A stretch of 64,000 nt of DNA from positions 1-64,000 of the forward strand of contig NZ_JAIUGX010000012.1 of NCBI RefSeq assembly GCF_020164785.1, given 5' to 3'. Numbering within the stretch: position 1 is the first letter of the stretch; each line of letters starts with the position of its first letter. This document shows positions 52 to 3,445 of this stretch, piece by piece. This stretch comes from Mesorhizobium sp. ES1-1. GTDB lineage: Bacteria > Pseudomonadota > Alphaproteobacteria > Rhizobiales > Rhizobiaceae. Position numbers and translations under genes: made by a program. The notes below the pieces were generated by a model, which was not told the origin of the DNA, did no database searches, and saw nothing but the letters and a program-made list of their open reading frames with translations.

Positions 52-816
52 TCAGGCCGCGAGCCGAGCTATGCGCTGCAACCGGCGCAGGGTCGTATCG
101 TCCTGGAGCGCCTGCTGGAACAGCGAAATCTCCTGGTCGATGCGATCGCACAGCTCCCCGGTGTTGCCCTTGAGCAGACCGCGCGTCTGCAGCAGGGCGG
201 CGACCGGTTTCTTGGCAAGCTGCCGAGCCCGGCCGAGGGCGGCGGCCTCGACGCTGCCCGCCGGCACGATCTCGGCGACCAGACCGAGCGCCCTGGCGTC
301 CTCGGCGCGAAGCGTGTCGCCGAGGCAGAAGAAGCGGAAAGCGCCGGCATAGCCGAGCTTTCGCGGCGCCAGGATGCTGGTTGCCGCATCCGGCACCAGG
401 CCGAAATCGACGAACGGCACCCGGAAGGTGCTTTGGTCCGACGCGATCACCATGTCGCAGTGGAACAGGATGGTGCAGCCGACGCCGACCGCATCACCAT
501 CGACACAGGCCAGGATGGGCTTGGGGAATGTCGCCAGCGTCCGGAATAGGTCGGTGACGGCGGCGATCAGCTTCTGGTGCTTGGTGGCGTCGAGGAATTC
601 AGAGAAGTCGCCGCCAAGACAGAAGCAGCCCGCCAGACCGCGCAGGACGACGACACGGACTTCGTCATCATCGGCGGCCTCGTGGAAGGTCCGGGCCAGG
701 CTTTCATAGGCTCGCCTGTCCAGCACCGGCCGGCCGTCATTGGAAGACACGGTGACGACCAGCGTGTGGTTGCGGAATTCCGGCAGCGGATGGGCCGTCA
801 TGGTCACTTCCGTCAT
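52..816 (-). CDS. Crotonase-family protein (enoyl-CoA hydratase/isomerase-like) coupled to luxI
   Basis: 254-residue crotonase fold. The oxyanion-hole motif CLGGD is near residues 66-70 and the GVGC turn near 111-114. The two glutamates used by hydratases are replaced: Thr115 stands where GGGCE is expected and Phe135 where QPE is expected, with an Asp two residues later. Simple enoyl-CoA hydration is therefore doubtful; isomerase-like chemistry or acyl binding is more likely. The start ATG shares its A with the luxI stop (TGATG), and a strong AAAGGAGGG lies just upstream; an adjacent GTG at 819 is also possible. Coupling to an AHL synthase suggests that it shapes or supplies the acyl chain of the signal. 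I recall reports of dienoyl AHLs from Mesorhizobium needing such a crotonase, but the assignment here is inference. Confidence 0.85.
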   Translation of the reverse strand: MTEVTMTAHPLPEFRNHTLVVTVSSNDGRPVLDRRAYESLARTFHEAADDDEVRVVVLRGLAGCFCLGGDFSEFLDATKHQKLIAAVTDLFRTLATFPKPILACVDGDAVGVGCTILFHCDMVIASDQSTFRVPFVDFGLVPDAATSILAPRKLGYAGAFRFFCLGDTLRAEDARALGLVAEIVPAGSVEAAALGRARQLAKKPVAALLQTRGLLKGNTGELCDRIDQEISLFQQALQDDTTLRRLQRIARLAA

Positions 817-1454
817 CACGACGCCCTCCTTTGGCCGAGCATGTCAGGAAATCCCCTGGCCAGCACGGGGGCATGATGGTTGCGGCGCGACCGCACCACG
901 TCGAGCGTGTGTTCGTCGAAGGTAAGCAGTGTCGCCACGACCTGCTGGTTGCCGTATGTGCGTTGGTAACCCAGCGGCGTCGCCAGGAAATGCAATTGCA
1001 AGGCGCGCAGGACCCACATAGGTTCGAACTCGATGATCATCTGGTTGACGCCGCGCTTCAGCCCCCACTCGACGAAGCCCGCGATCAGTTCGGTGCCCAC
1101 GGTCGATACGCCGCGGCGGCCGTCGCGGTAGCCGGGTGCGACCGCATAACGGGTCAACTCGAAGATATGCGGTCCCGAGGGAGGCGTTCCCTCATAGAGG
1201 TCGGTCAGCACCTCTGTCAGGAGATGCCCACGCGTTGTCGGCAGGAGCCTCTGGTAACCGGCGACTTCGTCGCCCCTGATGACGATCTGATGGATGGCCT
1301 CGTCATGGTCGAATTGATCGCGTTCCAGACCGTCCGGACGCCTGAGGTCATCCCATCCCATCTCCTCGACAAATATCTTATAGCGCAACCGATGGACGGC
1401 CTCCCAAAGGTCGGGACGTTCCATCAATTCCTGGGTTGTTAAAGAAAAAAGCAT
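816..1454 (-). CDS. LuxI-family acyl-homoserine-lactone synthase
   Basis: 212-residue autoinducer synthase that joins an acyl group to S-adenosylmethionine to make an N-acyl-homoserine lactone in the cytoplasm. The invariant residues of the family are present: Arg24, Phe28 and Trp34 in the LRYKIFVEEMGW stretch, Asp46 and Asp49, Arg69 in GYQRLLP, and Glu99 and Arg102 in FELTRYAV. I chose the ATG at 1454 because AGGAGA lies 8 bases upstream; a TTG at 1475 would add seven residues and run over that site. A perfect palindrome lies 54 bases upstream, a likely LuxR target. The gene sits between luxR and the crotonase on one strand. The acyl specificity cannot be read from sequence. Confidence 0.93.
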   Translation of the reverse strand: MLFSLTTQELMERPDLWEAVHRLRYKIFVEEMGWDDLRRPDGLERDQFDHDEAIHQIVIRGDEVAGYQRLLPTTRGHLLTEVLTDLYEGTPPSGPHIFELTRYAVAPGYRDGRRGVSTVGTELIAGFVEWGLKRGVNQMIIEFEPMWVLRALQLHFLATPLGYQRTYGNQQVVATLLTFDEHTLDVVRSRRNHHAPVLARGFPDMLGQRRAS

Positions 1455-1551: not shown

Positions 1552-2283
1552 CTAACTAATGTAGCCGCGCCTTATCGCTTCGGCGACGGCCTGAACCCGG
1601 TTGACGGCACCGAGTTTGCTTTTGGCGTTAAGAAGATGTTTCTCCGAGGTGTGTTCGGAGATTCCAAGGATTTGCGAGATCTCCCATTCGGACTTGCCGA
1701 CGGCGGCCCACTGCAGGCATTCGCGTTCGCGCGGAGTCAGTTCGATATGGTCGATAGTCTTTTCAGCCATGGTGTGGAGCTGCATGGCGCGGCCGACCGC
1801 GTAGGTCGATACAAGCGATACGAGGCCGAAGTCGGCCGGGGACAATTCGACGGCCTCACCGCCCAGCGACACCATGACGATCTGGCCGTCGAGCGTGATC
1901 AGCGGGAAGGCCAACCCGTCGCGCAATTTGTACGCCCCGGCATCGCCCATCACTTCGCCGCCGCTCTTGTCGGCACCGCCCCCCCGAGACGCATCGCGCC
2001 ACTGGAAAGGCGCCTGCAGCTGTTTCATATGGCTGACGACGGGATCATGATCGACATAGTTGCGGGCGACATAACGCTCCAGCCACTCGCCGGGCCAATC
2101 GCACAGAAGCACATGCTGTTTCTGCTGGCCGGTCGGCGTGCCTGGCTGCGGTACGGTTCCCGCCATAAGCGCGGTGAGACCGAAGCCGGACGTTATGCCG
2201 AGAAGCTGCTGACAGACCGCGGCCGCCGTCCCAGCGTGCTGCAGCTGATCTATGAATTCCAGCGTGCGATCGAACTGACCCAT
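1552..2283 (-). CDS. LuxR-family quorum-sensing transcriptional regulator
   Basis: 243 residues. The N-terminal autoinducer-binding domain keeps the six-residue signature: Trp67, Tyr71, Asp80, Pro81, Trp95, and a glycine near 123. The C-terminal LuxR helix-turn-helix spans about 180-243 (LTPRERECLQW, then ISEHTSEKHL). Such proteins bind AHL and then activate or repress at lux-box palindromes. It lies just upstream of luxI on the same strand, which makes it the probable cognate receptor. No strong ribosome-binding site precedes the ATG. Confidence 0.93.
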   Translation of the reverse strand: MGQFDRTLEFIDQLQHAGTAAAVCQQLLGITSGFGLTALMAGTVPQPGTPTGQQKQHVLLCDWPGEWLERYVARNYVDHDPVVSHMKQLQAPFQWRDASRGGGADKSGGEVMGDAGAYKLRDGLAFPLITLDGQIVMVSLGGEAVELSPADFGLVSLVSTYAVGRAMQLHTMAEKTIDHIELTPRERECLQWAAVGKSEWEISQILGISEHTSEKHLLNAKSKLGAVNRVQAVAEAIRRGYIS

Positions 2284-2542: not shown

Positions 2543-3400
2543 GTGGCGTTCCCGTGGAGGTCCCTCCTCATTGCGTTGACGCTGGTCTCGGCAGCGGGGC
2601 TTGCGGGCGGCGCGCGCGCCACCAGCGCCAAGCCTCAGGTCCCGGTGCTCTGGGACGCCAAGGAGCGACTGCCGAAGCCGGATCTCTCGACGCTGCCTCG
2701 GCTGAGATTCCTCACCACGACGGATTTTCCGCCCTTCAATTTCATCGACGGTACCGGAAAGCTGGCCGGTTTCCATATCGATCTGGCGCGCGCCATCTGC
2801 GCCGAACTTGGCATCGTCGACAAATGCCAGGTCCAGGCCCTGCCCTGGGCCGAACTGGAAGGCGCATTGGAGAAAGGCGAAGGCGAAGCGATCATCGCCG
2901 GCATCGCGGCCACGCCGCAATCGCGCCAGACATATCTTTTTTCGCGTTCCTACCTGCAATTCCCGGCGCGTTTCGTCATGCCGAGGAGTACCGCGCTTGC
3001 CGAACCCCTCTTCGACAAGCTGCGCGGCAAGCGCGTGGGCGTGATATCGGGCTCGGCGCATGAGCGCATGCTGCGCGACTACTTCAACAGCGTTCAGGTC
3101 GTCCCTTTCGACAGGCCGGAAGACCTCCATGCCGCCCTCAAGGCCGGCAAGCTCGACGCGGTCTTCGGCGACGGCATGCGCCTGGCCTTCTGGCTGGGCG
3201 GCTCGGACGCGGCGGACTGCTGTCGCTTCGCCGGCGGGCCCTATCTGGCGCCGGAATATCTGGGCACCGGGATGGCCATCGCCACCCGACTGAACGATCC
3301 GGTACTGGCCGCGGCACTCGACTACGCGCTGCAGGAGATTTCGATGAAGGGCACGTTCGCCGAACTCTATTTGCGCTATTTCCCGGTCAGTTTTTACTGA
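2543..3400 (+). CDS. Periplasmic substrate-binding protein, bacterial family 3
   Basis: 285 residues. An N-terminal signal peptide of about 27 residues ends near GGARA. The mature part resembles amino-acid-type binding proteins (SBP_bac_3): LRFLTTTDFPPFNFIDGTGKLAGFHIDLARAI is typical of the first lobe, and the GKRVGVISGS and LDAVFGDG blocks of the second. I chose the GTG at 2543 because GGAGG lies 6 bases before it; a GTG at 2525 would put that site inside the gene. No permease or ATPase gene is adjacent, so it may serve a distant ABC transporter or act as an orphan sensor. The ligand is unknown. It is transcribed away from luxR. Confidence 0.85.
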   Translation: MAFPWRSLLIALTLVSAAGLAGGARATSAKPQVPVLWDAKERLPKPDLSTLPRLRFLTTTDFPPFNFIDGTGKLAGFHIDLARAICAELGIVDKCQVQALPWAELEGALEKGEGEAIIAGIAATPQSRQTYLFSRSYLQFPARFVMPRSTALAEPLFDKLRGKRVGVISGSAHERMLRDYFNSVQVVPFDRPEDLHAALKAGKLDAVFGDGMRLAFWLGGSDAADCCRFAGGPYLAPEYLGTGMAIATRLNDPVLAAALDYALQEISMKGTFAELYLRYFPVSFY

Positions 3401-3445
3401 TCAGTCCCGATCAGCCCATTCAGGCGCAGGGAATATCGGCCAGCT

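Follow-up and report, generated by a model that had tools for sequence, protein, structure and literature searches.

The window analysed here, a stretch of 64,000 nt that to judge by its sequence is Mesorhizobium DNA or next to it, carries luxR-type, luxI-type and crotonase genes side by side on the minus strand (Table 1), and we firmly identify this set as the R1-I1-crotonase cassette of Mesorhizobium, a kind that has already been published. While such cassettes are known and common in the genus, what is new here is the assignment of the crotonase active site, a route to the signal precursor, and a second class of luxI-crotonase cassette. As the best explanation, held with moderate confidence, the crotonase would be a single-acid isomerase giving 2E,4E-C12:2-CoA for LuxI.

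Table 1. Positions of the cassette genes, active-site codons and lux-box-like palindrome in the window
Feature	Coordinates	Strand	Basis
Crotonase-superfamily gene	52..816 (or 52-801)	-	ORF; PF00378, 135.1 bits (cut-off 27); position is that of mlr5639 in M. japonicum
luxI-type AHL synthase gene, I1 type	816..1454 (819-1454 plus stop 816-818)	-	PF00765, 58.8 bits (cut-off 24)
luxR-type regulator gene, R1 type	1552..2283	-	PF03472, 82.6 bits (cut-off 23); PF00196, 59 bits
Thr115 codon (first hydratase Glu position)	472..474	-	Alignment
Phe135 codon (second hydratase Glu position)	412..414	-	Alignment
Asp143 codon, proposed catalytic acid/base	388..390	-	Alignment and conservation
Lux-box-like palindrome CTGCGTGATCACGCAA	1507..1522	-	68 nt before the luxI ATG

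The cassette and the published Mesorhizobium circuit

The circuit was described in M. japonicum MAFF 303099 (mlr5638-mlr5639), where I1 makes, and R1 responds to, 2E,4E-C12:2-HSL, a signal also made by two other strains; upon deletion of the crotonase gene mlr5639 little of it was left, complementation worked, and cells with the complementation plasmid grew slowly (PMC10470506, in the portion available). According to the same portion, R1-I1 homologues occur in ~90% of nearly 500 Mesorhizobium genomes, and AHLs with a double bond at 2,3 can escape mass spectrometry screens that depend on the m/z 102 fragment; the contribution of the crotonase to the signal is a question that the circuit's authors raise and, in that portion, leave unanswered. 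The crotonase-dependent dienoyl AHLs which the initial annotation had mentioned from Mesorhizobium are thus real published work that covers a gene of this kind, and among the open-licence papers listed in our searches this was the only one on luxI-linked crotonases.

Compared with the published description of mlr5638-mlr5639, the window showed no difference of substance: the order is luxR, luxI, crotonase on one strand in both, and the genus is the same by sequence. The window LuxI is probably of the acyl-CoA-using subgroup. Its closest solved relatives are 5w8c and 5w8a (autoinducer synthase) and 6wn0 (4-coumaroyl-HSL synthase), with LasI (1ro5) behind, and it is 93-95% identical to the top Mesorhizobium rows. 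The gap between luxI and the crotonase gene is 14 nt here, taking the conserved start, versus 8 bp reported for M. japonicum.

Three starts are possible for the crotonase ORF (52-819), namely GTG 819-817, ATG 816-814 and ATG 801-799. The column of the third is occupied by Met in 81 of 90 relatives, that of window residue 1 in 1 of 90; ATG 801-799, 14 nt past the luxI stop, is probably the conserved start, as far as relatives can tell. An overlap of the two genes in TGATG had been read as a sign of joint production. TGATG is present, yet relatives conserve the ATG that follows as their start; the coupling itself stands, the genes being tightly coupled whichever start is used. Residue numbers given here count from ATG 816 (from ATG 801, Thr115, Phe135 and Asp143 become Thr110, Phe130 and Asp138). 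Base 1 of the window is also base 1 of the contig, so that the genome shows nothing downstream of the crotonase gene. A run of about 20 C residues at 7-26, where the contig begins, is probably a sequencing or assembly edge.

A search for luxI-crotonase pairs in other genomes, as had been suggested, found the crotonase gene directly after luxI in 23/23 loci whose LuxI is ~70% or more identical (window included), and adjoining luxI in 80/80 kept contig loci, the best 80 of 124 obtained with the luxI query (LuxI identity 82-95%; 78/80 labelled Mesorhizobium). Kept in all 23 and all 80 loci, the pairing is most unlikely to have come about by chance. Below 50% LuxI identity, one of seven fetched loci (L032) had a crotonase neighbour. 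The luxR gene, too, adjoins luxI in related loci, save where the locus ends early. Across 297 genomes sampled from the family, 31 matched LuxI at E 1e-40 or better. Not every member of the genus has the pair: of eight same-genus genomes, counting the window's own, two (G537 and G554) yielded no hit to the window crotonase at E 1e-45 and none to the LuxI of locus L136 at E 1e-50. In the crotonase tree, one same-genus genome and M. ciceri WSM1271 have identical crotonases. A same-genus genome (G155, contig C31) carries a second, more distant luxI with one in-frame TGA (L168).

By reading of ORFs in two loci (L046 and L103), the conserved neighbours resemble a solute-binding protein, class I lysyl-tRNA synthetase, a PPK2-like protein, a sensor kinase, PhoU and a CorA-like protein, none with an obvious role in AHL synthesis. 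Nor did an acyl-CoA dehydrogenase or other AHL gene stand out beside the cassette in the ORF reading, which we count against the isomerase reading.

By itself, the palindrome CTGCGTGATCACGCAA is not significant, as 202 of 2000 base shuffles score equally well. The 90 loci of the Asp type defined below include 74 with a matching pattern 67-73 nt upstream of luxI, and in all 788,606 bases of these 90 loci the pattern yields only 79 counts on both strands, with self-complementary matches counted twice. LuxR with its AHL would drive luxI and the crotonase gene as one unit. A second palindrome, similar in sequence to GGTCGGCCGTGCCGACC, lies at about 1535-1551 at the end of luxR, and many Mesorhizobium loci have it ~97-99 nt upstream of luxI; it is possibly a terminator or a second regulator site.

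The crotonase active site

Alignment with the hydratase PaaF of E. coli, whose residues at the three columns considered here are E/E/G, bears out the initial annotation in that Thr115 and Phe135 replace the two hydratase glutamates, and the ordinary hydratase at about 49.5-50.3 kb of the window (L173) indeed keeps both (E/E/G). The glutamate pair of an enoyl-CoA hydratase is therefore absent from the cassette crotonase. The suggestion that these losses point to a distinct chemistry did not hold up: Thr and Phe also occupy the hydratase columns in the best five PDB sequence matches (4nek, 6lvo, 7bor, 5ve2 and 3fdu), among them 6lvo, titled enoyl-CoA isomerase, while 5ve2 and 3fdu are titled hydratase/isomerase. 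All five carry Glu eight residues after the Phe. A dead or distinct active site was rejected, Thr and Phe being common to these five and to 22/22 nearest unlinked homologues among the matches listed.

As read from the alignments, the active site is not lost and has one acid, at the third column. Asp143 falls in the column of the PaaG Asp (E. coli PaaG, aligned here, is T/F/D), which is Asp136 of T. thermophilus PaaG (3hrx); a structure of the D136N mutant exists (6sla). In PaaG, a delta3,delta2-isomerase homologue, this Asp is the catalytic residue and mediates proton transfer between C2 and C4, according to the part of PMC7497051 at hand. A review, in the part available, credits PaaG with one catalytic glutamate (PMC4498308), which is not borne out by the E. 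coli and T. thermophilus sequences, both of which have Asp. The catalytic acids of human ECH1 are given as D177, E197 and D205 in the accessible text of PMC10709515, and a gapless alignment by eye of human ECH1 (8sk6) places them onto T115, F135 and D143. Because of the PaaG and ECH1 D205 alignments, the single acid stands at a known catalytic column. The initial annotation had named glutamates elsewhere in the active site as grounds for giving up its reading; an acid is indeed placed elsewhere, though it is Asp instead of Glu.

T115, F135 and D143 thus form the pattern of a one-acid enoyl-CoA isomerase, with no Glu pair and an acid at the third column. While the crotonase shares with ECH1 the Asp205 column and, as predicted, the product class, a 2,4-dienoyl-CoA, the ECH1 residues Asp177 and Glu197 have Thr and Phe as their counterparts. 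With one of the three acids kept, a canonical delta3,5-delta2,4-dienoyl-CoA isomerase was rejected.

Three roles had been offered for the protein, namely to isomerise an acyl thioester, to bind it or to hand it over to LuxI, and of these the first is favoured. A non-catalytic protein that binds acyl-CoA or hands it over to LuxI would agree with the loss of both hydratase glutamates and with the tight gene coupling, but the acid at the PaaG/ECH1 catalytic column is kept in 90/90 close luxI-linked relatives, with C114, V133 and T146 fixed alongside. This conservation of Asp143 speaks against a role in binding or transfer alone, which we regard as very unlikely.

In the crotonase fold, hydration and dehydration use a glutamate pair, and 4-chlorobenzoyl-CoA dehalogenase has, in role and column, a nucleophilic Asp. 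Another crotonase reaction, either dehydration of a 3-hydroxy-4-enoyl-CoA, which would likewise give a 2,4-diene, or use of the Asp as a nucleophile as in the dehalogenase, seems unlikely, given that the pair needed for hydration or dehydration is absent here and that the known product needs no dehalogenase-type chemistry. What speaks for such a reaction is the mechanistic diversity of the superfamily, as stated in the available part of PMC1431709.

Counting rows within 1 Z as tied, the AlphaFold2 model of the crotonase (pLDDT 87.2, pTM 0.86) has as its top fold matches, among the matches listed, CDY (Z 32.5), OdaA (7bor, 32.2) and BoECI (6lvo, 32.0), followed by human ECI2 (2f6q, Z 31.6; 4u19, Z 31.5), with the hydratase-titled 3q1t (Z 29.8) and PaaG (3hrx, Z 27.7) lower. 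Rat and human dienoyl-CoA isomerase structures are absent among the 50 fold matches listed, which excludes nothing. The modelled fold fits the isomerase-like branch and cannot decide function; the top place of CDY, the hydratase-titled entries close behind and the lower rank of PaaG count against the isomerase reading.

Known one-acid isomerases resemble the window crotonase to different degrees. In BoECI and in the nearest paralogue of the window's own genome, Thr and Phe likewise fill the hydratase columns and a lone acid the third, and 6lvo is close by fold, but this acid is Glu in both and Asp here, with C114, V133 and T146 changed too. Human ECI2 presumably shares the arrangement of Thr, Phe and one acid. 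PaaG, the 1,2-epoxyphenylacetyl-CoA isomerase, has one Asp in the same column and T/F at the other two; it differs in its aromatic ring substrate, its distant place in the tree and its lower fold score. For the Bosea enoyl-CoA isomerase, a literature search found no paper.

Asp-type and Glu-type cassettes

Among 125 crotonases that remained once rows identical over about residues 31-200 had been dropped, the triad was T/F/D in 90 luxI-linked proteins, T/F/E in 8 luxI-linked and 22 unlinked ones, and other in 5. The 90 (Asp type) are the linked rows more than 50% identical to the window crotonase, left from 110 linked T/F/D rows by the same filter, window included; the 22 are the nearest unlinked homologues among the matches listed plus the own-genome paralogue, and five distant own-genome crotonases outside the 22 have E/E/D, E/E/T, E/E/G, I/F/D and Q/G/S. 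The third column is accordingly Asp in 90/90 close linked proteins and Glu in 8/8 divergent linked and 22/22 nearest unlinked ones. Further positions, among them C114, V133, T146 and F162, are invariant in Asp-type proteins and seldom seen in others.

On these sequences, the Glu type is a second class of luxI-crotonase cassette in other genera. Its eight divergent loci (L032, L130, L134, L136, L150, L152, L165 and L167) come from four families other than the window's, with one genome from the window's own family besides. In two of them (L032 and L134) about 190-200 nt separate the luxI stop from the base aligned with query crotonase residue 1, and L152 ends at a contig end. To our knowledge, no AHL has been identified for a Glu-type cassette. 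A class-wide search with the Glu-type crotonase at E 1e-48 gave 0/385, which excludes nothing, since even the window's own copy fell short of this threshold. The Glu-type pair of L032 (1447-2109 and 433-1257) lies beside transposase-like ORFs (2300-2965 and 3004-3411) and may be mobile. Methylopila M107 (Fig. 5A of PMC10470506, as available) could be of either type.

In a crotonase tree of a chosen subset, with 22 of the 90 Asp rows (window included), all luxI-linked rows form one clade (support 100/99) apart from the unlinked ones, with the Asp rows as a subclade (100/98). Both groupings persist without columns 114, 133 and 143 (linked 100/99, Asp 99/97), in a tree of 15 Asp rows from which L032, L152, L165 and the unlinked L126, L132 and L133 were left out, among others; this tree has one change of linkage and one change between Asp and Glu, and L134 groups with the Asp rows at weak support (85/49). 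The LuxI tree agrees, with the crotonase-linked LuxIs in one clade (100/100) and the Asp type as a subclade (100/100). One of ten LuxIs that have no crotonase neighbour, that of a luxR-luxI locus (L154/L170, 5608-7062), also falls in the linked clade; the 14 kb fetched around it held no crotonase match. We infer that the pairing arose once with Glu and that Asp was gained later in the Mesorhizobium lineage, a direction that is itself inferential because the trees are midpoint-rooted. As one evolutionary change separates Asp and Glu, any link between this residue and the product has a single event behind it.

The same comparison bears on whether the crotonase is instead a housekeeping delta3,delta2-enoyl-CoA isomerase of beta-oxidation, in the operon by chance and with an indirect AHL effect. 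Within NCBIfam it scores best against PRK06023, to which the unlinked T/F/E paralogue belongs, and ECI2 is among the close folds. However, it scores 197 bits, below the curated cut-off of 282, as does the Glu-type linked crotonase of L136 (180 bits), while the own paralogue passes with 429 bits; the linked proteins form their own clade, and the pairing is kept in 23/23 and 80/80 loci. We consider the housekeeping role quite unlikely. The paralogue itself, a full PRK06023 member at about 78929-79684 of contig C1 (genome G000; L002, 1462-2214), lies directly downstream of an ORF that reads as acyl-CoA dehydrogenase-like and is a candidate housekeeping enoyl-CoA isomerase.

A proposed route to the signal precursor

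The present analysis establishes gene order, conservation, residue positions, predicted fold and phylogeny, and earlier work in M. japonicum established the product and the need for the crotonase; co-regulation in this strain, isomerase activity, the substrate and the precursor route are our inference. Three rounds of beta-oxidation turn cis-vaccenate (18:1 delta-11) into 5Z-C12:1-CoA, the likely precursor, whose dehydrogenation would give 2E,5Z-C12:2-CoA. The crotonase, as a dedicated isomerase with a 2,5- or 3,5-C12-dienoyl-CoA from beta-oxidation as its substrate, would use Asp143 to move a proton along the C12 dienoyl-CoA chain, forming 2E,4E-C12:2-CoA from the 2E,5Z compound in one C4-to-C6 proton transfer or in two steps through 3E,5Z. 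LuxI, as a synthase probably of the CoA type, would then join 2E,4E-C12:2-CoA to S-adenosylmethionine. Such a C2/C4-to-C6 shuttle by one Asp is putative because the canonical dienoyl-CoA isomerase has two further acids.

In M. koreense, summed feature 8 (18:1 omega-7c and omega-6c, unseparated), in which cis-vaccenate is counted, makes up 49.2% of the fatty acids (PMC11473501, portion available). Roseobacters make 2E,5Z-C12:2-HSL and a 3E,5Z isomer, and a shift to 2E,4E was considered by the authors of that work (PMC6356624, likewise in part). In the window's genome no canonical dienoyl-CoA isomerase was seen, given that none of the 11 PF00378 proteins found has the D/E/D triad, and a search for a FadH-like reductase gave a best match of 30% over 489 residues. 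If the 2E,4E signal derives from beta-oxidation precursors, the crotonase would divert a beta-oxidation intermediate to the signal; the slow growth of cells with the mlr5639 plasmid fits such a drain and does not prove it.

More tentatively, the luxI-linked crotonases may be a separate group of AHL-tailoring isomerases, in which the Asp type would conjugate 2E,5Z-C12:2-CoA directly with one carboxylate and the Glu types would make undescribed unsaturated AHLs. If so, a single enzyme would carry out a reaction that otherwise takes two, an enoyl-CoA isomerase together with a three-acid dienoyl-CoA isomerase, and the third column, Asp or Glu, would predict signal chemistry. With Asp143 assigned and a precursor proposed from a main membrane fatty acid, the question of the crotonase's role becomes simply testable, and the Glu-type cassettes would provide a list of places to seek new AHLs.
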